A stretch of DNA of 56,742 nucleotides from a virus. Below, in pieces: positions 5,326 to 53,653 of the stretch. The position numbers and the translations under genes are program-made. Where the stretch lies: positions 1 to 56,742 of the IMG/VR virus record IMGVR_UViG_3300042521_001523. One strand, given 5' to 3'. Numbering within the stretch: the first letter of the stretch is position 1; each line of letters opens with the position of its first letter. The notes beneath the pieces were generated by a model. It saw only the letters and a program-made list of their open reading frames with translations, was not told the DNA's origin and ran no database searches.

Positions 5326-5340
5326 CCTATTCGGTCAGGG
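5320..5340. terminator. Hairpin shared by the two convergent operon ends
   Basis: CCCTGACC (5320-5327) pairs with GGTCAGGG (5333-5340) around a 5-base loop. The TGA of the plus-strand primase-helicase (5323-5325) and the TAG of the minus-strand giant gene (5327-5329) both lie within it. Being a palindrome it can fold in either transcript. There is no T-run on either side, so termination efficiency is uncertain. Confidence 0.55.
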
Positions 5341-8300
5341 CGTCCATCAGCTGGCGGATGTCGTCCTGAGCACCACGCGGAGCGGCGCGCAATGCCCGCT
5401 CACCAGCGCCACGCTGGGCTTCGCGGAGTGCCCGGACGGAGTTCGGCACGAAGCGGGTGATCTCCAGGGGCGTGCCCCGGGCACCGTCGTTCCAGTTGTT
5501 GACCGCCTCGACGATATCGCGCGCACCCTGGTTATCGCCACGCATGGTGGCCTTGATCCACGCCTGCCGGTAAGCCGCGACGACCTCCTTCTGGTAGTCG
5601 GACTCGCGCTGCGCGATGCGGATGACATCGTACTGGGTAGCCGCCCGCTCAGGGTAGAAGCCCAGCAAGCGCGTGATGACCGTGCCCGCATCCATCTCCG
5701 GGCTGACCACATAGCCCCGGCGATCCACCACAGCCCCAGAAGAGAGGTAGGCCGAGGTGTCACCCATGATGCGCAGGAAGGTGATCGGCGAGCTACGAGC
5801 CACATCCTCCAGGGTCTTGGTCGAGGAGAACGGGAAGGTGACGACATCACGCGCCGTGCTCGCCAGACCCGTGACGAAGCCCGTTGCCGGACCCAGGATA
5901 TCCTGGAGTTCGCGGGTAACGTTGGCCCCGGCCAGTGCCACGCCAGTGCCCGGGAGGAAGTTGCCTGCCGAGGTGCGAGAGGCCACGTCAGCCGGGACGA
6001 TCTGGTTAACCACGCCGCGCAGGAACACCGCCGACATACCGGGGAAGCTGCCTTCGATGTGGCGGATGATCTCAGCCCGGATGCTGCCCTGGCGGAAGCC
6101 GAGGCCCTGGGCCAACGTGTCGATCAGATCCTCCAAATCCTCAGCGAATGGCAAGCCGGTGGCACCAGCCAGGAGCCACATGGCGCCCAAGGTGCTGAGC
6201 TGCGCCGGGCGAGAGAGGCGCGCCAGCATCTGGATGACCGTGGTCGGGTAGGTCTTGTACATATAGAGGAAGGATTGGATGCCGTTCCTCCACGCGGGCG
6301 GGCGGTTCAGAACCGAGTACTCGCCAAGCGTCAGGTCGATAGACCGAACTGCTTCCTCACGCGCCCGATCAGATGCCTTCGCCTCGCTCAGGCCAGCAGC
6401 AATGGCCCGCTCGCGGAAGAGCCGGTAGGCAGCGAGGAAGGCAGCCCGGCGAGCAGCTTGTTCGGACAGATTAAAGGGCGCCATCCAAGTATCAGCGAAC
6501 CGGCGCATCCAGCGATTGGTCATGTACCCACGCGCCGTGGCGACGAGGGCGTTCGACTGCGCCGGGATGAGTTTACCCTCACGGATTTCGCGGGCGACAA
6601 CCCGGGCTTCCTCAGCGGTCAGGCCATAGCGACGCTGGAGTTCAGGGCTTTGCGCCACGCCGGGCTTCCACGTCTTGGCCAGCGTCGGATCGGTAGGCTT
6701 CGCCCCGGCGTCGTAGAAGTCAGCCCGGTTCATATCCATGCTGGTGACGCCGCGAGCGCCGATCTTGGCGAAGGCTTTGTGGTACTCCGACTGCACTTGC
6801 CCGAGACCGAAGCCGCCACCGAAGGCGTTCTTGGTGTTGTAGGACGCCATGTAGGGCATCCAGTTGGTGTAGGGGCTGAGCAGGTTCAGCGCGCCCTGCG
6901 CCACCGAGGCACCAAGCTGCATCATGCTGGTGTAGGCACGCACGCGAGAGGCGACCGGCCCCGCGCCGAAGTTGGACTCATCCACGAACTGGCTGCCATC
7001 AAGGTAGCTCAGCGTGCCCGCAGCTTGATTGTAGTACACCATGCTGCGACCGGCCCGGCCCTCCGGGTTGGTCGTGCGGAACATATACTCTGCACGATCC
7101 AGTTGCCGCTGTGCGTCCTTCTTCGCTTCGCCGGTCAGGCGGGCGACCTCATTACGCATGCGCGTGACGTTGGCCTCGTCGCCCTCCCACAGCGCACGAG
7201 AGCTGGGCAGGTTGAGGTTCATCAGCTCGCGCAGCGGCTGACGCGTCGTGGTCTTAGCGATGGTGGAGGCCCGCGACTCGATGTGACGCGAGAGCGCGTA
7301 GATACCAGTAGTGTTGTCGAAGCCCGGGGTCTGCGAGAACTCCAGGCGCGTACGCGCCGCGTTCTCCTGGCGGGTCAGGGTGGTGACCAGTTTCTCCATG
7401 ACCTTCGGCGTGGCATCGATGCCGAAGAGGCTCATACCGTACAGGAAGTCCTGGAGGTTCAGCTGCGGATCAGCAGCAACAGCATCCAGCACCCGCCCAG
7501 TCGTTGCCCGGAGCGTCACCTTGGTAGGGACAAACTCACCGTTCGCGTTGCGCGCCAGCAGCTCAAAGGTCTTACCCTTCAGCTCGGTGTTGAACTGCTG
7601 CGCCATGGTGTTAGCGCCGCCTTCATTGTCGAACTGCGAGTAGGCGAGCAGCGCCTGATGGCTATCCTTAACCTCCACCGGCTTGTCACCGACGAACGCC
7701 TGGAGGCGCATCTGGTAGTTGCCCTCGCGCAGCACAGGGATGTAGCCAGTAGCCACACCGCGTCGGGCGATACGCTCGCGCACACCGAGGTTGTAGGTGT
7801 TCAGGTAGAACTGCTTGACCTGATTTTGCAGGTCGAACTTCATCTCCTCAGGGAGATCCTTCCGGCGACCCTTCATCGCCACCATCTTCTCGATGAAGGC
7901 ATCTGCCGCAGACTGGCTGTCGAAGAACTTGGCGACCTCCGCGTTGCGATCAGTGCCCCGCCCGATGAAGGCGGCGTTCACGGCGGCAAGGAACTTGTCG
8001 GCCTCAGCCATGGAGGCCGGGTTCAGCACCTGGATGCCCGCCGAGTTGATCTCAGCGTCCTTGCTGTAGAGATCGCCGTACTTCCTCACGTAGGCCGTGA
8101 CGAACGCCTTGTCGGCGTTGTCGAGCTTGGCGTCCTTCATCAGCTGCCCAAGCTCGCGGTAAGATACGCGACGGTTAGCCGCGAGGCTGGCGTACTCAGC
8201 CTGGAGCATCTCAAATTCAACATCCATGACCGCCCGGCGGGCGCGCACGTAGAGTTCGTAGTCGGCGTCGGAGAAATCCTTGAAGCCAGCAAACTTGCGA

Positions 8301-11300
8301 GAGATGGTTGCGGGCTTGCCGTCGAGCCCTTCATACGAGTGGGTGTAGGAGAACCCGTTGCGAATCTGCTCCTTCGTCAGCAACCCCGCCTTGAAGAGCC
8401 GCTCAGCCTCAGCGTTGTTGCGCACGATGTTGCCATCGTCGCTGACAGAGAACAGCTTCTCGCCGCGCAGCAGCTTGTTGTCGAAGTTGGCGATGGCATA
8501 GCTACGGCCCGCGTACATGGCTTCCGAGATGCGCGCCTGGGTCTTTTCCGGGGCATCCATCAGGGGGCGCAGGTACTCGTTGAGGCGGTCCTTTGTCGCC
8601 ATGGTAATCTGGTTGGCCAGACCCATCAGCCCGTCGAACTCCATCAGACCCGGGTTCTCCAGAGCGCGGTAGTTGGCGAGGCTGAAGAACTTGGCCTTGA
8701 TGTCGTCGAAGGTGTTGGCGAAGTCCTTCCCCTTCTCGAAGATGAAGTTCAACGTCTCACCAAGGTTGGCTGGCCATGCGCCAACCTGTGCCTGGAAGAT
8801 CTGAGCCCTGGTGCTTGCCGAGAAGGCCGCAGTTGGGCTGAAGCGACCCGTACCCGCCAGACCAGTCTCGACCGCGTGCAGGCGCTGCGCGACTGCCTCG
8901 GCATTGAAAGTCACACCCTGGCTCCCGTCGCGGACGTAGCGGCGGGACTGGTCTAGGAAGTAGCGCGTGGCGCTGTCGCCGAAGCGCACACCAAGGCTGC
9001 TCAGGATGTTCTTAATAGCATTCCACACCCGCATGACTGTGTTGGTCGCCAGGGTGGCAGCGTAGTCGGAGAGGTACTCCTCGACCGCTTCAGCCTTCGA
9101 CAGGCCACGCACTTCCATAGCAGCGTCGGCTGCTGCCTGTGCCTGCGGGTCGGTGTCGTAGATACGCTCCATAAGCGCGTCGAAGCGGTTGCCCGGCATG
9201 ATGCCGCGCATACCGAAGTGACCAAAGACCTCGTGCGCCAGTACGAAGCGGAGGTGCTGCTCGTTGGCGATGCGGTCGGTGAAGATGATGACGTTGCCGT
9301 CGCCAAAGGAGTAACCAGCAGCCTCTGCCGTGGCGAAGTCACCCTGCGAGCGAGCAGCATTGGCGCGAGCGTAGAGCGCAGGGTTGGTGCGGCGCAGCTC
9401 TTCCTGATTAGCGACGACCGTGACGTTGGGCCGTGTGGCCAACTTCGACAGGAAGGTCTGCACCAGCATCCGGGCGCGGCCCGCACCCAGTGGGCGCACT
9501 GGCGACCCATCCACGTTGCGCGCACCGGTCAGGGTGTTCCAGCTGTTCAGCGACCAGCGGCCTGCCTCGGGCGTCGCCTTCGACACCACGGGGCGAATGC
9601 CAGTCTGTTCATCACGAGGTCCGAAGTTGAAGAACTCCGGGCCTTCCTTGATGTAGTCGCTGAGCTTACCCGTGCCGTAAGCCGGGTCGGTGCCTGCCTT
9701 CTTCAGACGCGTCCATGCCTGCGACGCCTGGAGGCGCATCGCAGCGGTGAGTGGTGCACCCGCGTTGACCTGTTCGATGATGGTGCCCAGCGTGAGGAAG
9801 TCATCATCGAGCTGGAGCTTGTCGCCAGCCTCCTTCCCAAGCCGCTGCTGCCGGTCAACGACCTCAGCCGCCTTATACTCGAAGGAGTCAAACCCAACCT
9901 CATTCTCCAGGTAGTCCTTGGCAAACGCCTTGGCTTCCTTGGAACCATCCTTCGACCAGCCAATCAGAGCAGCAATCGCCTCGATACGGCGACGCCCTTC
10001 CGTCAGGTTGGCTTCAGTCGCCATGGCCTGCGCCTCTTCCAGTTCATTCTGCGGAAGGGCTTCAGGCTCCGGGGTCGGTGCAGCCGCGCGCTGCTCAGCG
10101 GCGGGGGTTGCGGATGTTGCTACTGGCGCCGCCACCGGGGCGGCGGGTGCCTCTAAAGGGCGCGGAGGGGCTGCCTCCGCAGCCGGGGCAGGTGCGGGTG
10201 TCGGGGTTACTTGGGGTTGCGCTGCCGTCCCGCCTTGGACAGGGCGATTGCGACGGCCTGCTTGACCGCCGCCTGCTTGTTCTTTGGCCTGCTTGAGCCG
10301 ATCCTGCCCTTCGCCTGCCAGTCGTCCACCAACGTCTGTACGTTGGCCGACACCACCTTGTTCGACTTCCCTCGCTTTAGCGGCACTGGCACGACCCCTC
10401 TTCAGATTGGTGGGAGTTGCGGGAGCAGCAGGGGCTGCGGGCTGCACCATGGCAGGCGCGGCCAGCGCAGGTGCGATCTCAGCAACAGGTGCAGGCAGAG
10501 CCGTGGGGATCGCCGCTTCACCCGGAGCCGTCTCGGCAACAGCGGCAAGCTCAGCCCGGAACCGGTTTGCCTGCGCAGGCGCCAGTGCCTGGACACGCTC
10601 AAGGAAGCTGGCTTCGCTGTTTCCGTACCCTACCAGGACCTCATCCTGCTGCGCCTTGGTCAGCTGGTTGAACTGACGCACCACGGCCCGGCGGGCGTTG
10701 TCGGCGATGCGGTTGCGCCCGGTGGCCACGGCTTCCGCATCCAGAGCGAGCGGCTGGTTGGCCGTAGCCTGAGCCAGCGCCGCTTCGTAGTCCCGCTCAG
10801 CCGCAGTCGGGGCAGGCGGTTGGGCCGCACGCTGAGCCTCAGCCTGCCGAAGTTCCATCTGGCGACGGAGCGCCAGCAGCTGGTTACCAGCCTGGGTCTC
10901 GCCAAGCTGTGCGGCGGGTGCTGCCTGAGGAGCAGGACGGCGCAGTGCCTCCTGACCCGGAGCCGTAGCCATACCAGGGACAACGAAGCTCGCAGGCGTG
11001 CGAGGGGCCGGGCGCTGAGGCACCACGGGCGGGGGCATAACCGGTCCCGGCGTCGGGATGAAGCCAAACAGATCACTCTGTCCGGCAGGCACCGGAGTTC
11101 CAGGTGCCGGTGCCTCAGGAGGCAACGCTGCGGTTGGCGGTGAGACGCCACCAAACAGGTCCAGCTGCCCAGGCTGGGTAAGGAACGGAAGCGTCAGCTG
11201 TTCGCTAGGCTGGGCAGGGGCAACCGTAGGCTGCGTAGCAAACAGATCACCCTGCGCGCCGGGTGGCGGCGGAGCAACTCCAAACGAAGCACCCTCACCC

Positions 11301-12745
11301 AACGGGAACAGTTCGCCCTGAGTACCGGGACGCTGCGCTGGAAGCGCAACGCGCCCTTCCAGAATAGGCGAAGCGCCGAGGTCAGCACCGGGGAACAACT
11401 CGCCCTGCGCAGCCGGGGGTGTAGCAGGAGGGGTTGGCTGCTGACCCTGGTTTTGGAGGATGTCGCGCGGCTCACGCCCGGTCTCGATGAACCGACCCGC
11501 ACCACCGAAGCCCGCACCCAGCAGAGCACCAGCACCAGCGGCGATCAGCGCGTTCTCGCCGTACCGCTCAACGGCATAAGGAGCGAGGGCCTTCCAATCG
11601 TTAGCCGTCAGCAAGCTACGGAACTGCGGGTCGAAAAGCGCCTGCTCCACCACCGTCTGGAGCGCCTCGGTCCCGGCTTCTTCCAGGCCACTGCGAACCG
11701 CAGCACCGCCCACCGACTTGGCCCGCGCCAAGCCCGTGACTGCACGCTGGCTGGCTTCTTCGATGGCACCGGACAGGGTGCGCGAGATGCTGCCCGCCAC
11801 ACGGCCAGGAGCGATGGCATCGATGAGGCTGGTCGCCAGGGCGCCGCCAGCAATCTGCAACTGGATCTGCGAATTGGTCACGTCATAGGCGGGCTGTCCA
11901 TCCGGGGTCCGCGCATCACGCGCCGCCTCATAGAAGGTGTTCAGCTGCTGCGGGAAGCTGGTGGCAAGGAGACCGCCCACCGCACCAATGGTGCGTGCAC
12001 GCGCCAGGGTAGCAGCCGTAGCTGCACCCGCAGCAGCACCTGCCGGACCGGCGACAAGACCACCCACAGCGCCACCGGCCAGGGCCGCCGCACCACTCGT
12101 CAGGACCGAGGGTACACCCTCAATCGCAGCGTCCACGATGTTGTTGAAGAGGGAGTTGCTGCGCTGGATCAGCGCCGACCGCTGCTGGTCGAACTCATCC
12201 TGACCCGTGATAGCTTCACCAACCCCGGCAATAGCACCGCCTATCTGGGGCGCACCCAGCATCTCAATACCACGACCCACGCCGCCAACGAGACCACCAA
12301 CAGCAGCACGACCGCCACGCGCCAGCAGCTCACCCGTACCCCGGCGCTCAGAAAACCCAGCAAGGTAGTCGGTGAAGCCGCGCTGTGTCAGCGGCTGCCA
12401 GCCAGCGCCCGAAGGCGGGGCAGAGGGGGTAAGCGACTGCGACGCCTGGAGCGCCGAACCCACATCACGGATATCGAACGCCCGCCCACCAGCGAACATC
12501 TGGTTGGTGACCGGGTTGTAGTAGGCCGAGGCCGCAGGAGCCGCAGGAGCCGCAGGAGCCGCAGGGGGGATGAGGCCGGGCGTGCCAGCACCCACCCGAC
12601 CCAAGGTCTGCTCCCGGAACGCAGCCCAATCCGCCTGTGACGGAGCAAGGTTGCCAAGGCCAGATGCCTGCGTGACGCTTCGCGGCGCCCCGGAGATCTC
12701 CAGCCCAAGCGCAATCTGGTCCGGGGTGGCGAAGAAATCAGACAT
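5327..12745 (-). CDS. Giant polyvalent internal virion protein (2472 aa) with zincin-like domain and clamp-motif array
   Basis: This is the last and largest late gene. Residues about 140-420 hold several Gly/Ala-rich hydrophobic segments, compatible with membrane insertion during genome ejection. Residues about 430-600 are a Pro-rich linker carrying six QxxLF-like motifs (447-560). Residues 600-900 are another low-complexity linker. Around 1170 the sequence LAHEVFGHFG with a following VEEYLSDYA (1221-1229) looks like the HExxxH...E zincin motif of phage polyvalent proteins. The C-terminal 350 residues, with FLYMYKTYPTTVIQM near 2130, resemble the large-polyvalent-protein-associated terminal domains of podophages. 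It is probably packaged in the head and injected. Family assignment is by motif and context. Confidence 0.75.
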   Translation of the reverse strand: MSDFFATPDQIALGLEISGAPRSVTQASGLGNLAPSQADWAAFREQTLGRVGAGTPGLIPPAAPAAPAAPAASAYYNPVTNQMFAGGRAFDIRDVGSALQASQSLTPSAPPSGAGWQPLTQRGFTDYLAGFSERRGTGELLARGGRAAVGGLVGGVGRGIEMLGAPQIGGAIAGVGEAITGQDEFDQQRSALIQRSNSLFNNIVDAAIEGVPSVLTSGAAALAGGAVGGLVAGPAGAAAGAATAATLARARTIGAVGGLLATSFPQQLNTFYEAARDARTPDGQPAYDVTNSQIQLQIAGGALATSLIDAIAPGRVAGSISRTLSGAIEEASQRAVTGLARAKSVGGAAVRSGLEEAGTEALQTVVEQALFDPQFRSLLTANDWKALAPYAVERYGENALIAAGAGALLGAGFGGAGRFIETGREPRDILQNQGQQPTPPATPPAAQGELFPGADLGASPILEGRVALPAQRPGTQGELFPLGEGASFGVAPPPPGAQGDLFATQPTVAPAQPSEQLTLPFLTQPGQLDLFGGVSPPTAALPPEAPAPGTPVPAGQSDLFGFIPTPGPVMPPPVVPQRPAPRTPASFVVPGMATAPGQEALRRPAPQAAPAAQLGETQAGNQLLALRRQMELRQAEAQRAAQPPAPTAAERDYEAALAQATANQPLALDAEAVATGRNRIADNARRAVVRQFNQLTKAQQDEVLVGYGNSEASFLERVQALAPAQANRFRAELAAVAETAPGEAAIPTALPAPVAEIAPALAAPAMVQPAAPAAPATPTNLKRGRASAAKAREVEQGGVGQRTDVGGRLAGEGQDRLKQAKEQAGGGQAGRRNRPVQGGTAAQPQVTPTPAPAPAAEAAPPRPLEAPAAPVAAPVATSATPAAEQRAAAPTPEPEALPQNELEEAQAMATEANLTEGRRRIEAIAALIGWSKDGSKEAKAFAKDYLENEVGFDSFEYKAAEVVDRQQRLGKEAGDKLQLDDDFLTLGTIIEQVNAGAPLTAAMRLQASQAWTRLKKAGTDPAYGTGKLSDYIKEGPEFFNFGPRDEQTGIRPVVSKATPEAGRWSLNSWNTLTGARNVDGSPVRPLGAGRARMLVQTFLSKLATRPNVTVVANQEELRRTNPALYARANAARSQGDFATAEAAGYSFGDGNVIIFTDRIANEQHLRFVLAHEVFGHFGMRGIMPGNRFDALMERIYDTDPQAQAAADAAMEVRGLSKAEAVEEYLSDYAATLATNTVMRVWNAIKNILSSLGVRFGDSATRYFLDQSRRYVRDGSQGVTFNAEAVAQRLHAVETGLAGTGRFSPTAAFSASTRAQIFQAQVGAWPANLGETLNFIFEKGKDFANTFDDIKAKFFSLANYRALENPGLMEFDGLMGLANQITMATKDRLNEYLRPLMDAPEKTQARISEAMYAGRSYAIANFDNKLLRGEKLFSVSDDGNIVRNNAEAERLFKAGLLTKEQIRNGFSYTHSYEGLDGKPATISRKFAGFKDFSDADYELYVRARRAVMDVEFEMLQAEYASLAANRRVSYRELGQLMKDAKLDNADKAFVTAYVRKYGDLYSKDAEINSAGIQVLNPASMAEADKFLAAVNAAFIGRGTDRNAEVAKFFDSQSAADAFIEKMVAMKGRRKDLPEEMKFDLQNQVKQFYLNTYNLGVRERIARRGVATGYIPVLREGNYQMRLQAFVGDKPVEVKDSHQALLAYSQFDNEGGANTMAQQFNTELKGKTFELLARNANGEFVPTKVTLRATTGRVLDAVAADPQLNLQDFLYGMSLFGIDATPKVMEKLVTTLTRQENAARTRLEFSQTPGFDNTTGIYALSRHIESRASTIAKTTTRQPLRELMNLNLPSSRALWEGDEANVTRMRNEVARLTGEAKKDAQRQLDRAEYMFRTTNPEGRAGRSMVYYNQAAGTLSYLDGSQFVDESNFGAGPVASRVRAYTSMMQLGASVAQGALNLLSPYTNWMPYMASYNTKNAFGGGFGLGQVQSEYHKAFAKIGARGVTSMDMNRADFYDAGAKPTDPTLAKTWKPGVAQSPELQRRYGLTAEEARVVAREIREGKLIPAQSNALVATARGYMTNRWMRRFADTWMAPFNLSEQAARRAAFLAAYRLFRERAIAAGLSEAKASDRAREEAVRSIDLTLGEYSVLNRPPAWRNGIQSFLYMYKTYPTTVIQMLARLSRPAQLSTLGAMWLLAGATGLPFAEDLEDLIDTLAQGLGFRQGSIRAEIIRHIEGSFPGMSAVFLRGVVNQIVPADVASRTSAGNFLPGTGVALAGANVTRELQDILGPATGFVTGLASTARDVVTFPFSSTKTLEDVARSSPITFLRIMGDTSAYLSSGAVVDRRGYVVSPEMDAGTVITRLLGFYPERAATQYDVIRIAQRESDYQKEVVAAYRQAWIKATMRGDNQGARDIVEAVNNWNDGARGTPLEITRFVPNSVRALREAQRGAGERALRAAPRGAQDDIRQLMDALTE
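11066..11407 (-). repeat. Array of six beta-clamp-binding-like motifs encoded in the giant virion gene
   Basis: Read on the minus strand, residues 447-560 contain QGELF (447), QGELF (476), QGDLF (498), QLTLPF (516), QLDLF (527) and QSDLF (556), separated by Pro/Ala/Gly-rich linkers. QL(S/D)LF is the classical pentapeptide by which bacterial proteins bind the DnaN sliding clamp, and QLTLPF resembles the Hda-type hexapeptide QLSLPL. The peptides are seen directly; binding is inferred. Confidence 0.6.
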
Positions 12746-12760: not shown

Positions 12761-14569
12761 TCAGCGTTGCCCCACCGTCAGCGGCTCGATAGTGAACGTA
12801 GGCTGCGCACCAGCGGCACTACCAGGGGGCGGCGGTACCTGGATTATGCGGGAACCACCCACGACTTGACCAGTGCGCTTATCGACAACGACCAGAGACT
12901 GCTGACCGCTGGCATCAGTGATCCGCTGCACGTCCAGCTCGGGGGCCGACTGCCGCAGGCGCGCCTTGACCTCTTCGAGAACGCCTTCGGCGCTAACCCG
13001 AGCCCGCTGCTGGATAGCTTCGCGTGCGGCGAGGACAGCCAGCTCGATGCGCTGCTGACGCTCCTGCCGAACCTGCTGCTGGAAGTTGGTGTCGAAGAGC
13101 ATACGCGCCTGAACTTCAATCTCCTGGCGGGTCACACCCTGGCGCGACAACTGCCCATCAAGGAACACGTTAAACGTACCATCTGCGCGCGGTTGGAAAG
13201 CTAGACGATTCCTGGACTCCGTGTGGAGCATACCAGCCAAAGGCGCCACGTTCCCGTTCTGGAACTGGGTGATCGCTGACATACCGTTCAGATACGTCAT
13301 CTCCTGGTTGATCTGGTTCATGCGCGTGGTGATCTGATCCAGGGCTGCCCGATCCCGAGCCGCCAGGGCCGTCTGATAGCGGCGCTGAAGCTGACCATAC
13401 TCCGTGGTCAGCCTGTTCTGGTCAGACCCAACGCGAGCAGCATCGTAGATAAGTGAGAGCGGAGCGTTTTCCGTACGCGCGGTGGTCGTACCCGCAGTGC
13501 CTGCCGGACTCCGAGACTGTGCAGCCTCAAACCGCTCGATGGCCTGCTGGTCAGCCGTGGGAGGGACAAACGAAGCACCAGAAGTCGGTGCCTCGAAAGG
13601 CGCACCTACGCCATCAGCGGTATAGGTTGCACGCTCAGTAGGTGTGGCCTGGGCACGCTGCGCCAGAAGCAACCGAGCCTCACTTGCCAGGGCAACGGCA
13701 CCCGCACTTGGCGAACCGAAGAATGACCGCTCGCCACGCGCGATAATCTGCCGCAGCTGGGCATCCGATTGAGTCCTGAGAAAGTTAGTGGTTGCATTAG
13801 TTTCAGTGGCCGGTGCTCCACCCTCAGGCGTCGCGCCCTGTTCACCCTGCGCCCCGGGCGTCAGACCGGTGGGCAGGCCAGTGTAATCACTGACACCCGC
13901 GCTCGCCAGCTGCGGATTGCCCGGCATATTCACACCAGCGAAGCGCCGCTCGCCAAACTCGGGGCTCACCCACGAAGGAGCCTCAGCCCGAGGTGCCACG
14001 GGGAGTGGAGCCTGGGGACGGGCAGCTGGGGCGGGTGCCGCAGCGGCAGGAGGAGTAACAGTAGCGGGAGCAGCGGCAGGGGGCGGTGTCGTGGCCCCAC
14101 CCTCAGCTGGGATAAAGCCAGGGGTAGCACCGAGGGGGCCAGTACCGGGAACCACTGGCACGGGGGCGGCAGCAGCAACCGGCGGCGGCGCAACCTGAGC
14201 GCGGAGAGCCGCGATAGCGGCGTTCTGCTCCGCAATGGTACGCTCAAGACCCTGGATCGTCAGCTCGCCGCGACGAAGCTCCTGGGGCAGCAGCTGCTGC
14301 GAACGGCTAACCCCAAGGGCAGTCTGCTTCATAGTGAGCGGGAACTGCTCAGCAGTACGAGCTTCTAGTGCCTGAGCACGCTTCTCAGCCTGCTGCGCCC
14401 GCTGCTCTTGAAGCTCACGCATCTGCGCAAGCTGGCGCATCTCGTCCATACGCATCGCGTTGGTCTCGATGGCCTGACCGCCCACGAAGCCACTACGGAA
14501 CGCCTGACCCGGGGACTCCGGCTGCCCGGAACCCTGATACGGCGTGTACTGGTAGAGCGAACCGGACAT
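12761..14569 (-). CDS. Internal virion protein (602 aa), coiled-coil plus Pro/Ala-rich linker
   Basis: The protein begins MSGSLYQYTPYQ, with a strongly helical, Gln/Glu/Arg-rich segment at residues about 40-125 (MRELQEQRAQQAEKRAQ), then a Pro/Ala-rich linker (about 125-200), and a helical C-terminal half that ends near TGQVVGGSRIIQVPPPPG. It sits between the giant ejection protein and a Gly-rich virion protein, in the place of T7 gp15/gp16-like internal core proteins. No enzymatic motif is visible. It is probably part of the internal core or ejectosome; that role rests on gene order and composition. Confidence 0.65.
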   Translation of the reverse strand: MSGSLYQYTPYQGSGQPESPGQAFRSGFVGGQAIETNAMRMDEMRQLAQMRELQEQRAQQAEKRAQALEARTAEQFPLTMKQTALGVSRSQQLLPQELRRGELTIQGLERTIAEQNAAIAALRAQVAPPPVAAAAPVPVVPGTGPLGATPGFIPAEGGATTPPPAAAPATVTPPAAAAPAPAARPQAPLPVAPRAEAPSWVSPEFGERRFAGVNMPGNPQLASAGVSDYTGLPTGLTPGAQGEQGATPEGGAPATETNATTNFLRTQSDAQLRQIIARGERSFFGSPSAGAVALASEARLLLAQRAQATPTERATYTADGVGAPFEAPTSGASFVPPTADQQAIERFEAAQSRSPAGTAGTTTARTENAPLSLIYDAARVGSDQNRLTTEYGQLQRRYQTALAARDRAALDQITTRMNQINQEMTYLNGMSAITQFQNGNVAPLAGMLHTESRNRLAFQPRADGTFNVFLDGQLSRQGVTRQEIEVQARMLFDTNFQQQVRQERQQRIELAVLAAREAIQQRARVSAEGVLEEVKARLRQSAPELDVQRITDASGQQSLVVVDKRTGQVVGGSRIIQVPPPPGSAAGAQPTFTIEPLTVGQR

Positions 14570-14587: not shown

Positions 14588-15850
14588 TTAGGAGAAGAGA
14601 GACTTCTGCTGGGTGGACGACCGACCACCAAAGGCGCTCGCCAGACCGCCAAAGGCGCTCGCCAGATCCCGGTTGTACTCACGTTCGCGGCGCTCGACAT
14701 CACGGTAGGCAGGCAGCGCCAGAGTGGCAGCACCGGCAGGAGCTGTGGTGGGCATCGCGTTCAGACCCGCCGTCGTAGCCGTCGCCGCCCGAGCGTACTC
14801 AGCCGGGATAGCAGACGCACCAGCCTGACCACCAGCAATCTCACCACGACGGATGTCAGCGTCACTACGCAGACCAGCCTCACGGAAGCGGCGCTGCGTG
14901 CCAATGTTGGCCTGAGCAAACGCCTGCTCAGGATTGGCCGTGCCCTGCTGAAGCAGGCGCCGCGCCGCCGACACACGTTGGTCGAACATCTCGCGGTTGG
15001 TCCCCGCCAGACGGGAGGTCTCTTCAACGTAGGCGCGCTCCTCAGGGGTCAGCCCCTCGGGCGGCTTGTTGTACATGGTCATGGCAAGCTGACCAACGCT
15101 GGCAATACCAGACGGCGTAGTAAGACCAGAGGCAAGGTTACCCACAGCGCGACCCAGGCCCTCAGCCGAGAAGAAGCTCGGCGCAGCCGCACCAGCGACG
15201 CTACCACCAAAGCCCGGAGCAGCACCAGTTGCCAAGCCTGCACCGCCAGTAGCAGCGGCACCACCAGCAGGCTGGCCGGTCAGACCAGCCATGAACCCCT
15301 GCCCAAAGGAAGCCTCGGCTGGAACCGTCGCGCCACCAGCGGCACTACCGATGCCCGTGGTGGAGATCGGCGCTGTGGCAGCCTCGTAAGTCATGGCTGG
15401 AACGGGGGTATTGGCAAGCGTAGTACCAGCCTCTGGCACCCCCGGCGCCACACCAACGCCGCTCTCAATCGTCGTCGGGCCGTAATACCCAGCCTCACCA
15501 ACAGGCGCGACAGTAGCAACTTCAGGGCGGGTGTAGCTCACCGTAGTAGCCGTCTCTGTCGGAGCGCCGAAGAGAGCGTTCTGCGTAGCCTCGATACCGC
15601 CACCCTGGACGAAACCGCCCACAGCACCACCAGCGCCGCCGATCAGCGCGCCGCGACCCATATCGCCAGTGATTGAGCCGGACAAGGCGCCAGTGGCTGC
15701 GCCGTAAAGCGCGCCAGCTGCCGTCGAGGCCGCGACAGCCGTGCTGCCAAACACCGCAGTAGCGATAGCCGGAACGGCAAAGGGGAGTGCGACAGCGGCC
15801 ACAATGCCGATAGCTGCACCAAGAATGCCCTTGCTCTTCTTACCACCCAT
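14588..15850 (-). CDS. Internal virion protein with hydrophobic Gly/Ala N-terminus (420 aa)
   Basis: After a short basic start (MGGKKSKG), residues about 9-85 are Ala/Gly/Val-rich and hydrophobic (AAIGIVAAVALPFAVPAIAT), enough for one or two membrane spans and rich in GxxxG-like spacing. The rest is low-complexity Ala/Thr/Gly followed by a helical segment near residues 270-350 with regularly spaced Arg and Glu. A GGAGG ribosome-binding site precedes the ATG. This plan fits an ejected pore-forming internal protein (the T7 gp14 role). No catalytic motif is present. Assignment is by context. Confidence 0.65.
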   Translation of the reverse strand: MGGKKSKGILGAAIGIVAAVALPFAVPAIATAVFGSTAVAASTAAGALYGAATGALSGSITGDMGRGALIGGAGGAVGGFVQGGGIEATQNALFGAPTETATTVSYTRPEVATVAPVGEAGYYGPTTIESGVGVAPGVPEAGTTLANTPVPAMTYEAATAPISTTGIGSAAGGATVPAEASFGQGFMAGLTGQPAGGAAATGGAGLATGAAPGFGGSVAGAAAPSFFSAEGLGRAVGNLASGLTTPSGIASVGQLAMTMYNKPPEGLTPEERAYVEETSRLAGTNREMFDQRVSAARRLLQQGTANPEQAFAQANIGTQRRFREAGLRSDADIRRGEIAGGQAGASAIPAEYARAATATTAGLNAMPTTAPAGAATLALPAYRDVERREREYNRDLASAFGGLASAFGGRSSTQQKSLFS

Positions 15851-40252: not shown

Positions 40253-40673
40253 AACAATCTGTAAAAATAGCCTGTTTTTTTACATTTTATACGTTTGTCT
40301 CCGTATACTGTAAAGTTAGATCTTTACAGATTGTAGGCTAGTTGACACGTAAACACCATGGAAAACCAATGGGTTCCAGGATCTCTCTCTCTATCTATAA
40401 TCTATATTTTCTAACAATCCGTAAAAAAGGAATTTTAACCCTTTCCTCATGCGCGAGGCCCCTGGTGGATACGTAAAGCATGTACAGTGCATTCCCCTTT
40501 ACACCCCCCAACTCTCTTCTAATTTGTGGCGCTCTTTACGAATATTTTTTAGATTATTAGATTGTTGACAGATCCTGCCTCGTAACCCACTAATTTTCCA
40601 CCCTTTTAACAATCTGTGCGCTACCGCGACGTTATACATACAAAATAGATCACGACATCATAATAGATTGTTG
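40253..40673. repeat. Six dispersed copies of AACAATCT / AGATTGTT core
   Basis: Forward copies: 40253-40265 (AACAATCTGTAAA), 40413-40425 (AACAATCCGTAAA, one mismatch), 40608-40617 (AACAATCTGT). Reverse copies: 40323-40334 (TTTACAGATTGT, exact complement of the first), 40559-40566 (AGATTGTT), 40665-40672 (AGATTGTT). Both orientations and irregular spacing suggest binding sites for an initiator or regulator. Confidence 0.7.
40308..40329. promoter_or_regulatory. Perfect 8-bp palindrome (operator-like)
   Basis: CTGTAAAG (40308-40315) and CTTTACAG (40322-40329) flank 6 bases. The right arm overlaps the reverse AACAATCT repeat. The 14-base centre spacing fits a dimeric HTH protein on one DNA face. 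Confidence 0.5.
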
Positions 40674-40694
40674 CGACCATTGATGGGGCCGGAC

Positions 40695-40723
40695 TTGACA
40701 CGGCGGGGCCGCCGGGCTAGCCT
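40695..40723 (+). promoter_or_regulatory. Candidate promoter of the long plus-strand operon
   Basis: Perfect TTGACA (40695-40700), 17-base spacer, then TAGCCT (40718-40723); the -10 matches only 3 of 6. The expected start point would give a 5' leader of about 45 bases before ATG 40776. It lies immediately after the repeat cluster. Confidence 0.4.
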
Positions 40724-40775
40724 GGGAACCGGGTCGGCGCTCCGCCGATGCCCCACAACAGAGGTGAATGGACAG

Positions 40776-42290
40776 ATGTTCCAGCTCATTGATGTGTCCA
40801 CTGGCGTTCCTGTCAATGGCGACCTTTACATTACCGCCGATGCTGCCCTTGCAGCTCGTGTCAACTACCCTGGTGTAAAGACCCGTATCCAGCAGCTGGT
40901 TGACGACAGCTGGATGGAGCGAGAAGCGTCCCGTCTGGCCACTGGCCACCACGCGGTGCTGCCGAGCTACATCATTGGCTATACCAAGGATGGCCACTTC
41001 GCTCATGTGTCTAAGGACCGTACCAAGATTGCCTTTACAGAGTCCCCTGAGAAGGGGATGCGTGACATCCAGACCGTGGTGCCTGCCTCCACTTACCTTG
41101 CCCGCTTTGCTAGTGATCGGCTTACCCCCGACAAGATCCGTGATCTGGCGGCACGCTACGAGTCTCGGCTTGTTGTCAACTCTAGTACCCTGGTGATCAG
41201 CCACGCCAGGGATGCCTTCCGGTTTGCGTACAACGATCAGCCTGTCAAGTCTGAGTCTTCCGACCATGTGTCCTGCATGGCCCGTGCTGCTCGTAGCTAT
41301 ACCGGTTCCCTCAACCTCCACCCTGCTGAAGCCTATGCCACTGATCAGGATGGACTGGCGATTGCCTACACCACCGACCCTCAGAACCCCAACAGCGTCA
41401 CTGCCCGAGCTGTGCTGTGGCCCCGTGAGAAGACCTTCGTCCGGGTCTACGGCCTCACCGATCAGTACCGCATTGCCCTGACTGCGATGCTCAGGGAGCG
41501 TGAGTACGAACGGACCACCAGCTTCGCTGGTGCACCACTGAACCGTATCCCCGCTGAGACTGAACTCGATGCCGATGATGAGGATGGCACCTTCCTGATG
41601 CCCTACCTCGATGGTGAGGATAAGGCCGTCGATGACCACCCGGCCAAGCGTAGGTTCTTCATCTGCGACAGCGGCGATTACGCTGCTGATGAGACTGGCG
41701 GCACCATCGAGGTTGGCAACTATTCCCGTACCCAGTGCGGTTGCTGTGGTGACCGTATGCACCGCGACGACGATCAGTACTCGGTGGACGGCGAGACGTG
41801 GTGCCTCAACTGCTATGACAACGAAGCCTTCACCTGTGCCTACTCCGGTGACAGCTACAGCCACAACAATGGCGACCCTACGACAGTGTGGCGCCGTGCC
41901 CGTCGCTCCACTCACAACGGCATTGGTAGCCCCTGGCGTACCTGGGAGGAGCTGTGGAGCGGTGACGCTGCACAGTCCTATGCCTTCCACTGCGAGAACA
42001 CGGACCAGTGGTACGCCGATAGCGACTACACGGCGATGGAAGTCATCGTGAACACCCGTGCTGGTACCCAGACGTGGTGCCAGGAGGAGACTGAGGGCGA
42101 GTACTTCCGCTGCCCGGACTGCGAGGAGATCTTCTCCAACGACATGGTGCATCCCGACAGCATCTACACCAACACCATGCGCTGCCATGACTGCCACAAC
42201 GCTTACGTCGCCGATCAGGAGGAGCGTGGATACCCGATGCCTACCTTCGTCGCTGACGCCAACCAGCTTGAACTCCCCGTCAACCTCTAA
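40776..42290 (+). CDS. Multi-zinc-ribbon protein (504 aa)
   Basis: ATG 40776 (MFQLIDVSTGVPVNGDLYIT) has GAGGTGAA upstream. The first 270 residues show no known motif. After about residue 310 there are several Cys pairs: RTQCGCCGDRM, GETWCLNCYDN, FTCAYSGDSY, later YFRCPDCEEIF and MRCHDCHNAY. These look like two or three LIM-like or zinc-ribbon modules. The extreme C-terminus QLELPVNL resembles a clamp-binding hexapeptide. It opens the operon next to the repeat region, so DNA or RNA binding is plausible. No family is recognised. Confidence 0.75.
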   Translation: MFQLIDVSTGVPVNGDLYITADAALAARVNYPGVKTRIQQLVDDSWMEREASRLATGHHAVLPSYIIGYTKDGHFAHVSKDRTKIAFTESPEKGMRDIQTVVPASTYLARFASDRLTPDKIRDLAARYESRLVVNSSTLVISHARDAFRFAYNDQPVKSESSDHVSCMARAARSYTGSLNLHPAEAYATDQDGLAIAYTTDPQNPNSVTARAVLWPREKTFVRVYGLTDQYRIALTAMLREREYERTTSFAGAPLNRIPAETELDADDEDGTFLMPYLDGEDKAVDDHPAKRRFFICDSGDYAADETGGTIEVGNYSRTQCGCCGDRMHRDDDQYSVDGETWCLNCYDNEAFTCAYSGDSYSHNNGDPTTVWRRARRSTHNGIGSPWRTWEELWSGDAAQSYAFHCENTDQWYADSDYTAMEVIVNTRAGTQTWCQEETEGEYFRCPDCEEIFSNDMVHPDSIYTNTMRCHDCHNAYVADQEERGYPMPTFVADANQLELPVNL

Positions 42291-51503: not shown

Positions 51504-51770
51504 ATGCCAAAGACCACGTTCAACGCAACCAACACTGTCTACACTGTCACCACTCCGAGAACAGCAACCGGCACCTTCAGTACTGCTGAGTGGAATCAAC
51601 TCGCCGATATGCGAGACATCGCCAGGACGAATGTAAGAGATGTGCTCGACCGCGAGTTCCCGCCCGAGCTGCGGGAGTTCCTGATCTGGCTGGTCAACAA
51701 CGACGCGCACATCAACGCCAAGTTCATGGCGTTCAGGGCGTGCAAGCGGATCGGCGTGGAGATCAAGTGA
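51504..51770 (+). CDS. Small hypothetical before DNA polymerase (88 aa)
   Basis: ATG 51504 (MPKTTFNATNTVYTVTTPRT) follows GGAGAGGTGAACCAA. The product has a Thr-rich beta N-terminus and a helical remainder (LADMRDIARTNVRDVLDREF, PPELREFLIWLVNNDAHINA). The last base of its TGA is shared with the polymerase ATG (TGATG). It could be a polymerase accessory protein because of this coupling, but there is no motif to show that. Confidence 0.6.
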   Translation: MPKTTFNATNTVYTVTTPRTATGTFSTAEWNQLADMRDIARTNVRDVLDREFPPELREFLIWLVNNDAHINAKFMAFRACKRIGVEIK

Positions 51771-53653
51771 TGGATATCGTCACCATCGATCTGGAGACCT
51801 ACTACGACCGCGAGTATTCGCTGTCGAAGATGACGACCGAAGCCTACGTGCGCGATCCGCGCTTCGAGGTGGTCGGTGTTGCCATCAAGGTGAACGGGTT
51901 CCCGACTGACTGGTACAGCGGCTCCGACCCGGGCAAGTTCCTGCGCCAACTCAACTACCGAGATAAGGCGATCCTCTGCCACAACACCGCCTTCGACGGT
52001 GCGATCCTGTCGTGGCACTACGGCATCCGCCCGAAGCTCTGGCTCGACACTCTGTCGATGGCGCGGCCACTGCATGGCAGCACGATTGGTGTGTCGCTCA
52101 AGGCGCTCGCCACGCACTACGGCCTTGGTGAGAAGGGCGACGAGGTGCTGCGCACGCTCGGGATGCGAAGGGCTGACTTCACGCCCGACGCGATGGCACG
52201 CTACGCTGAGTACTGCGTGAAGGATGTGGACCTCACCTACGCGCTGTTCCGCAAGCTGGCCAAAGGGTTTCCCTCGCAGGAGATCCATCTCATCGACACC
52301 ATCCTGCGCATGTACACAGAGCCTTCGCTGGTTCTGGATACCGATCTGCTGAACAAGCACCTCGACGAAGTGGTGACGCGCAAGCAGGCGCTGTTGGATT
52401 CCTTCGGTCAGGCTGGTGACGACGACACAAAGTCCCTGCTGATGTCGAACGAGAAGTTCGCAGCATACCTACGCGATTGTGGTGTGACGCCGCCGACCAA
52501 GATCAGCAAGACCACGGGCAAGCCCACTTACGCCTTCAGCAAAACCGACAACGTGTTCACCTCAATGGTGGAGCATCCTGATGAGCGTGTCTCCACAGCG
52601 GTCGCTGCTCGCCTTGGTGTGAAGTCCACCATAGAGGAGAGCCGCACGCGCTCTCTGCTCAGTGTCGCGTCGCGTGGGCCGCTGCCCATCATGCTCAACT
52701 ACTACGGTGCGCACACTGGTCGCCTGAGCGGTGGCGACAAGATGAACCTCCAGAACCTGCCGCGTGGCGGTGCGCTGCGACGTTCCTTGTGTGCGCCCGA
52801 TGGCAAGCTGTTGGTGGCGTGCGACTCGTCGCAGATCGAAGCGCGTGTGGTGGCGTGGCTGGCAGGGCAGAGCGATCTGCTTGAAGCCTTCGCACAGGGG
52901 CGTGATGTCTACAGCGAATTTGCCAGTGCGGTGTACCAGCGCAAGGTCAGCAAGAGCGACAAGCTCGAACGCTTCGTTGGTAAGACCTGCATTCTTGGCC
53001 TGGGCTACGGCATGGGTGCGGCGAAGTTCCGCGACACGCTGGCGCTCGGCATGGGCGGCATCAAGGTGGAGATCGAGGAGGTCGAAGCCTTGCGCATCGT
53101 GAAGCTCTACCGTGAGAAGAACTCTCGCATCGCCATGCTGTGGACCCGCTGCTCCAGTGCGCTCAACAGCATCGCAGGCGGCATGGAGTTCGACATCGCG
53201 CCGAAGGTGCTGGCGTCGCTGGTCACCACGAAGGAAGGCATCCGCCTGCCTAACAACCTCGCTATCCGCTACCCGGCGCTGCAAGAGACCGACCAGAACG
53301 GGTACGTGTATGCCAGCGACCAGCGTCAGTTCCGCGAGGCGCTGAGGGCGCGCGTGGTGGGCGAGCCTGTAGAGGCCGACAAGATGACCCGCATCTACGG
53401 CGGCAAGGTTGTTGAGAACATCGTGCAGGCCGTGGCGCGCATCGTCGTCACCGACCAGCTGGTGGAGATCAGCAAGCGGTACAAGGTCGTGCTTCAGGTG
53501 CACGACGAAGTGGTCATCGTGTGCGACGAGGATGAGGCCGAGGAGGCCAAGGCGTTCGTGATGGGCGTGATGTCCACACCGCCTGAGTGGGCCAAGGGCC
53601 TGCCCGTCGCGTGCGAAGCTGACGTTGGTAAGACCTACGGAGATGCGAAGTGA
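51770..53653 (+). CDS. polA: DNA polymerase I-like (family A) with 3'-5' exonuclease; Leu at 762-equivalent
   Basis: The 627-residue protein has Exo I VTIDLET (Asp7, Glu9), Exo II HNTAFDGAI, Exo III YAEYCVKDVD, polymerase motif A ACDSSQIEAR (Asp352), O-helix RFVGKTCILGLGYG (Arg401, Lys405, Leu409) and motif C LQVHDEV (578-580, HDE). There is no 5'-3' exonuclease domain, as usual for replicative phage PolA. The residue aligned with E. coli Phe762 is Leu409. Leu at this site is known to give slower, more accurate synthesis and is frequent in uncultured viruses. It should be the phage replicase, with the helicase-primase, SSB and nucleases around it. Confidence 0.95.
   Translation: MDIVTIDLETYYDREYSLSKMTTEAYVRDPRFEVVGVAIKVNGFPTDWYSGSDPGKFLRQLNYRDKAILCHNTAFDGAILSWHYGIRPKLWLDTLSMARPLHGSTIGVSLKALATHYGLGEKGDEVLRTLGMRRADFTPDAMARYAEYCVKDVDLTYALFRKLAKGFPSQEIHLIDTILRMYTEPSLVLDTDLLNKHLDEVVTRKQALLDSFGQAGDDDTKSLLMSNEKFAAYLRDCGVTPPTKISKTTGKPTYAFSKTDNVFTSMVEHPDERVSTAVAARLGVKSTIEESRTRSLLSVASRGPLPIMLNYYGAHTGRLSGGDKMNLQNLPRGGALRRSLCAPDGKLLVACDSSQIEARVVAWLAGQSDLLEAFAQGRDVYSEFASAVYQRKVSKSDKLERFVGKTCILGLGYGMGAAKFRDTLALGMGGIKVEIEEVEALRIVKLYREKNSRIAMLWTRCSSALNSIAGGMEFDIAPKVLASLVTTKEGIRLPNNLAIRYPALQETDQNGYVYASDQRQFREALRARVVGEPVEADKMTRIYGGKVVENIVQAVARIVVTDQLVEISKRYKVVLQVHDEVVIVCDEDEAEEAKAFVMGVMSTPPEWAKGLPVACEADVGKTYGDAK

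Follow-up and report, generated by a model that had tools for sequence, protein, structure and literature searches.

A putative array of sliding-clamp-binding motifs in the linker of a giant virion-type protein of a T7-like podophage

We analyzed a viral DNA stretch of 56,742 nucleotides (positions 1 to 56,742 of IMG/VR virus record IMGVR_UViG_3300042521_001523; hereafter, the window). An open reading frame (ORF) on its minus strand, at 5327-12745, encodes a giant protein of 2472 amino acids of the polyvalent type and closes the late operon, the position of gene 16 in T7. A linker in this protein contains six short islands of the form Qxx[L/M]F or QxxLP[F/L], each of which we regard as a putative clamp-binding motif (CBM). 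Judging from these sequence patterns, the linker probably serves as a docking segment that engages the beta clamp of host DNA polymerase III (DnaN) multivalently, carried by a giant protein at the ejection-protein position.

Six motifs in a variable linker

The linker comprises residues 425-600 (10946-11473, minus strand), as judged from composition and alignment, and is highly variable among relatives. Its Pro/Ala/Gly-rich composition and variable alignment suggest that it may be disordered. The motifs, all on the minus strand, are QGELF (residues 447-451; 11393-11407), a second QGELF (residues 476-480; 11306-11320), QGDLF (residues 498-502; 11240-11254), QLTLPF (residues 516-521; 11183-11200), QLDLF (residues 527-531; 11153-11167) and QSDLF (residues 556-560; 11066-11080), with spacings of 29, 22, 18, 11 and 29 residues. 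No further QxxLF or QxxLPF site was found in the rest of the giant protein. An earlier note, made from the sequence alone, had placed six such motifs at 11066-11407 within 114 residues and had called QLDLF an exact match to a DnaN-binding peptide. The coordinates proved exact, with every motif in frame, and QLDLF is identical to the consensus peptide as defined in PMC11139829. The same note overstated the composition of the linker as almost only Pro/Ala/Gly/Thr, which make up 96 of its 176 residues (55%).

The canonical beta-clamp motif is Q-phi-x-[L/M]-[F/L] or Q-phi-x-[L/M]-x-[F/L], and QLDLF is the strongest pentapeptide (PMC11139829). QLDLF and QLTLPF, the latter in the hexapeptide form, fit these definitions strictly; QGELF, QGDLF and QSDLF deviate at position 2. 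In E. coli peptides, Gly, Ala or Val is accepted at this position at the cost of weaker binding (PMC11139829). We read the clamp-motif region in 72 Y-family polymerases, taken from a phylum-wide sample of genomes; an earlier scan of genome contigs for UmuC had given only enterobacteria at the top, and the phylum-wide sample was used instead. The regions contained QGDLF (three times), QGDMF, QSDLF, QADLF, QAELF, QPELF, QLDMF, QLNLF, QLELPF, QLPLPL and QLSLPL. In the UmuC-type polymerases, which include carriers of QGDLF (motif 3) and one of QSDLF (motif 6), these peptides sit at the place of QLNLF in E. coli UmuC. Because QGDLF and QSDLF are used by UmuC/DinB polymerases, the QG and QS forms are credible as clamp motifs. 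To our knowledge, no other bacterial peptide code alternates QxxLF and QxxLP[F/L] forms.

A phage-encoded clamp was considered as the partner and rejected: 12 phage records, of which several are fragments, gave no match to the beta-clamp domain DNA_pol3_beta_3 (PF02768), and 11 of 14 control genomes were positive. Therefore, the target would be host DnaN. Elsewhere in the window, a protein of 540 amino acids (40668-42290, plus strand; phrog_6980), which has no relatives in the fetched loci, carries the C-terminal sequence ANQLELPVNL, in which QLELPV resembles a hexapeptide clamp motif.

Within the fastest-changing part of the protein, the motifs are no less conserved in amino acid sequence than the catalytic domain. 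This comparison was made in one well-aligned pair, the window and L002, a relative with an array of its own and 61% overall identity. The order QGELF, QGELF, QGDLF, QLTLPF, a fifth motif and Q[S/R]DLF is kept between them, the fifth being shifted by two residues. Among the aligned codons of the motifs, 11 were identical, 16 silent and 2 replacing; the corresponding numbers were 20, 41 and 69 in the rest of the linker and 98, 84 and 68 in the peptidase domain (Fisher test of motif codons, P 2e-6 versus the linker and 0.02 versus the peptidase). Thus, 27 of 29 motif residues were retained, and 69 of 130 residues elsewhere in the linker were changed.

If the islands of Q, L and F were a low-complexity accident, produced by chance or slippage, the biased composition and fast turnover of the linker would have favored them. 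However, when residues 425-600 were shuffled 200,000 times, no motif appeared in 91.7% of shuffles, one in 8.0%, two in 0.26%, three in 0.0015%, and four or more never. Further, the motif copies differ in synonymous codons, and therefore did not arise by recent DNA duplication; changes within them are almost only silent, and arrays recur across families (see below). Chance and repeat slippage were rejected on the shuffles and codon data, and such an accident is barely credible.

Recurrence of the array and exchange of the linker filling

We fetched 52 loci of relatives from a metagenomic and uneven sample, of which 39 with complete linkers entered the tree set. Approximately 13 of these 39 contained at least two convincing motifs, in arrays that hold both motif lengths, 3 contained one, and the others none (L031 was set aside). 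The pooled linkers of 43 relatives contained 46 motifs versus 1.4 expected. Q..LF was 31-fold over expectation, the top ratio among the frequent three-position patterns listed. The 57 motifs in 15 relatives comprised 45 pentapeptides and 12 hexapeptides; in the pentapeptides, position 2 was mostly G, L or M and position 3 mostly E or D, although both positions were unconstrained in the search pattern. Full arrays with both motif lengths were present in distant relatives, for example L053 (QGELF, QMELPF, QGELF, QLNLPL, QLELPL, QLPLF, QMEMF), L049 (QGELF, QMELPF, QMELPL, QGDLF, QVEMF, QQEMF, QMDLF), L060 and L061. Mapped onto a peptidase-domain tree, presence or absence of the array requires a minimum of eight changes on well-supported branches.

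The giant gene of L009 (8995-16258) is a mosaic whose array-bearing half resembles L002 and whose later part is close to L003 and L005; thus, mosaic exchange occurs. The reading frame of this gene is broken near the C-terminal part. In array-less relatives the linker is often filled by other repeats, such as QFGPF in L008, LRPSERV/LAPSQRV in L046 and GPMQGPAPLGE in L031. The QGPMPL matches of L031 belong to the last of these repeats and were not counted as clamp motifs. Repeats of the LxLRPSERV or LLAPSQRVQP type also occur, at approximately residues 480-640, in the linkers of the array-less L046, L045, L048 and L030. Because arrays come and go, mosaic exchange occurs, and other repeats occupy the same place, the linker looks like an exchangeable slot, of which the clamp-motif array would be one filling.

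Arrays were also sought independently of homology, using a DNA pattern encoding QG[DE]LF followed after 15-45 bases by Qx[DE]LF, in the viral collection. The pattern matched 19 contigs, three of which were relatives already fetched. In each of the other 16 the two motifs share a reading frame, and in 15 they lie in an ORF of at least 500 amino acids. A scrambled control of equal base composition gave 16 matches, 8 of them in frame and none in an ORF of 500 amino acids. Total matches (19 versus 16) do not differ from the control; only frame and ORF length do, and this comparison was picked after seeing the data. A wider-spaced pattern added large array ORFs (L199, L206, L208 and L210), whereas matches to a pattern beginning with QL[DE]LF were largely noise, 12 of 25 being in frame and few lying in large ORFs. 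The array proteins from the scan include ones with LPD38, LPD39, or RadC and PBECR5 domains, in families unlike that of the window protein. Many QGELF copies continue into a longer common tail, approximately P-x-x-DLG-x-AP (for example, QGELFPDADLGTAP, QMELFPGADLGTAP and QGELFEGEDLGQAP); its carriers, L060, L061, L067, L071, L073, L199 and L208, belong to different protein families. The tail may reflect either extended contacts or shared descent of a cassette.

The recurrence bears on whether the QxxLF islands are instead assembly or packing stickers for a virion partner, such as the portal, the core or a neighboring ejection protein, and are unrelated to the clamp. The upstream virion-type protein at 14588-15850 also ends in QKSLFS, which is kept in L008, L015 and L018, and unrelated repeats such as QFGPF of L008 fill other linkers, as if any sticky repeat serves. 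However, in other relatives this neighbor keeps the terminal LF without the Q. The QKSLFS end is probably not a clamp motif, since the Q is lost in most relatives, and we did not count it. Further, the alternation of pentapeptides with LPF or LPL hexapeptides is a CBM signature, and such arrays recur in giant proteins of other kinds, with LPD38, LPD39 or RadC/PBECR5 domains. A sticker role is thus distinctly unlikely.

Several observations weigh against docking on DnaN. Gly or Ser occupies position 2 in four of the six motifs of the window, and Gly at this place lowers the binding of E. coli peptides (PMC11139829). No array was found in approximately 23 of the 39 complete relatives, including the near neighbors L008, L042 and L033; the sisters L049 and L042 have seven motifs and none, respectively, and the sisters L034 and L033 three and none. 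The different repeated peptides in L046, L031 and L008 indicate that the slot may tolerate any repeat. The giant proteins of ten cultured phages (DarB/PLxRFG-type) hold at most a stray motif, and we therefore rejected arrays as a general property of polyvalent proteins. Finally, a PolA-type polymerase is encoded in 11 of the 12 phage records examined, and a phage with its own polymerase of this type has no obvious need of the host clamp. The clamp-array reading of the earlier note is partly supported, by the canonical QLDLF and QLTLPF, the QG and QS forms in polymerases, the kept sites and the recurrence, but the feature is not obligate. Its expectation that QxxLF sites are kept while linkers vary held in the pair of the window and L002, but many relatives, close ones too, lack the motifs.

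Domains and genomic setting of the giant protein

The gene at 5327-12745 has full-length relatives, and its product matches phrog_11358/phrog_21376 at the C-terminus. No Pfam match was obtained for the protein even at E 10, and it is therefore termed polyvalent-type rather than named a member of an LPD family. A mid-protein region (8699-9658, minus strand) carries HExxGH (9218-9235) and a downstream EE pair (EEYL at 9071-9082), both invariant in 24 relatives. An AlphaFold2 model of this region had a mean pLDDT of 68 with a core above 80, and its BFVD matches were "large polyvalent protein associated" proteins (best E 2.7e-10). Searches of the PDB by sequence and by fold gave weak matches and no confident one for the whole protein or the peptidase. 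The domain is predicted to be a zincin-type peptidase of the HExxxH kind known from polyvalent proteins.

The C-terminal region (residues 1934-2466; 5348-6946, minus strand) is related to the giant proteins of Pseudomonas phages F116 and H66 and is common to F116/H66-like virion proteins; its structure model had a low pLDDT of 55 and was discarded. The record of its homologue gp60 of H66 notes mass-spectrometric detection in the virion. Synteny and this virion-verified homologue suggest that the window protein is present in the virion, and it would then probably be ejected into the cell.

The window represents most of a T7-like podophage genome, with genes for the portal, capsid, tail-tube proteins, fibers, endolysin, internal virion protein and terminase, a primase/helicase and a PolA-type DNA polymerase (51590-53653). 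The order is portal, capsid, tail tubes, internal virion protein, two more genes and then the giant gene. These two genes, both on the minus strand, encode proteins of 420 amino acids (14588-15850; hydrophobic N-terminus) and 602 amino acids (12761-14569), equated by position only with gp14 and gp15 of T7, respectively. Both co-occur with the giant gene in relatives, and homologues of the 602-amino-acid protein adjoin it in many of them. Within the giant gene, 37 bases (7532-7568) are identical or nearly so in five Klebsiella phage records (PP882722, PQ133005, PQ133615, PP934444 and PQ133006). Two of these records have 6 and 9 matching places, and there is no wider similarity; the matches are possibly contamination or a read artefact in those records.

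Proposed action on the host clamp and comparison with known systems

If the islands bind DnaN, the Pro/Ala-rich spacers would keep the CBMs extended and independent, and a single chain could engage the two pockets of one clamp dimer, or bind several clamps at once, with avidity. Ejected along with the DNA, newly made late, or both, the protein would dock itself, its metallopeptidase and its C-terminal domains on host clamps. It would then compete with host clamp clients and may disturb host replication or repair near the incoming genome. Clamp competition would be a workable phage strategy, because overexpressed QLDLF peptide inhibits the growth of E. coli (PMC11139829) and Twort gp168 and G1 gp240, DnaN-binding proteins from S. 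aureus phages, halt host replication by acting on the sliding clamp (PMC3594737).

The quantity of protein bears on how the array might act. A T7 virion contains approximately four copies of gp16, and a cell contains several hundred clamp dimers. Because of such copy numbers, titration of the whole clamp pool by ejected copies alone is implausible. Clamps captured locally, close to the entering genome, or a role of protein made late would fit these numbers better. Thus, of the suggestion in the earlier note that the protein could recruit or titrate the host clamp, local docking or competition fits better than titration of the whole pool by ejected protein. The same numbers count against the array being a clamp-titrating poison freed when the metallopeptidase cuts the polyprotein. 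A role in processing the polypeptide is suggested for the zincin-like peptidases of polyvalent proteins (PMC5512222), the array sits between the N-terminal domain and the peptidase, and growth inhibition by the CBM peptide in E. coli is also consistent with a poison. However, no cleavage site was identified, and approximately four ejected copies with six sites each are few relative to the clamp dimers, so that only late-made protein could titrate them. We consider a freed poison decidedly improbable.

Instead of blocking the host, the array might recruit host clamps, for example to the entering genome, and so aid the replication or repair of phage DNA. Polyvalent proteins are proposed to jump-start transcription or replication (PMC5512222), and other mobile elements use the host clamp, for instance through the transposases of many IS families (PMC4549789). 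Recruitment is at odds with the PolA-type polymerase in nearly all records and with the requirement of clamp loading for primed DNA and a clamp loader. The PolA-type polymerase of T7 does not use a sliding clamp. We therefore regard recruitment as unlikely.

Docking on DnaN to the detriment of host clients remains our preferred explanation. More tentatively, and with less than even confidence, we suggest that virion-borne giant proteins of several uncultured phage lineages possess an evolvable slot that swaps host-protein-binding arrays, whose recurrent clamp-binding filling would dock ejected effector domains on the host replisome at entry, a kind of clamp targeting not previously described for a structural protein. 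The phage attacks on the sliding clamp that we found described are small early inhibitors. If our reading is correct, six to seven clamp motifs in one virion-type protein would move clamp targeting to entry or late assembly and would account for part of the unexplained sequence in giant polyvalent proteins. The array offers a concrete handle on proteins to which annotation assigns no function, and a collection of multivalent clamp ligands made by nature. Each component has precedent, namely clamp motifs, phage proteins that target the clamp, and polyvalent proteins; as far as we found, an array in a virion-type giant protein has not been described. Our literature search, which covered few subscription papers, found none pairing clamp binding with internal virion proteins, and the earlier note likewise knew of no described ejected protein with a clamp-motif array.

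Like T7 gp16, the window protein is encoded by the last gene in the internal-virion-protein block, here of a T7-like podophage. The likeness is one of position; the window protein is almost twice as long and has a CBM linker and a peptidase. Polyvalent proteins (Iyer et al., 2017; PMC5512222) are likewise giant and multidomain, with an HExxxH-type zincin, and are proposed to enter with DNA. In contrast, that paper never uses the word clamp, and the ten cultured DarB/PLxRFG-type members lack arrays. Bacterial clamp clients (Pol III alpha, UmuC, DinB, Hda and MutS) use the same pentapeptide and hexapeptide patterns but carry one or two motifs, whereas the phage virion-type linkers carry six to seven. 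Twort gp168 and G1 gp240, which we liken to the window protein as functional analogues only, are also phage proteins aimed at the host clamp; they are listed as early growth-inhibitory proteins, whereas the window protein is a giant late protein with a CBM array.
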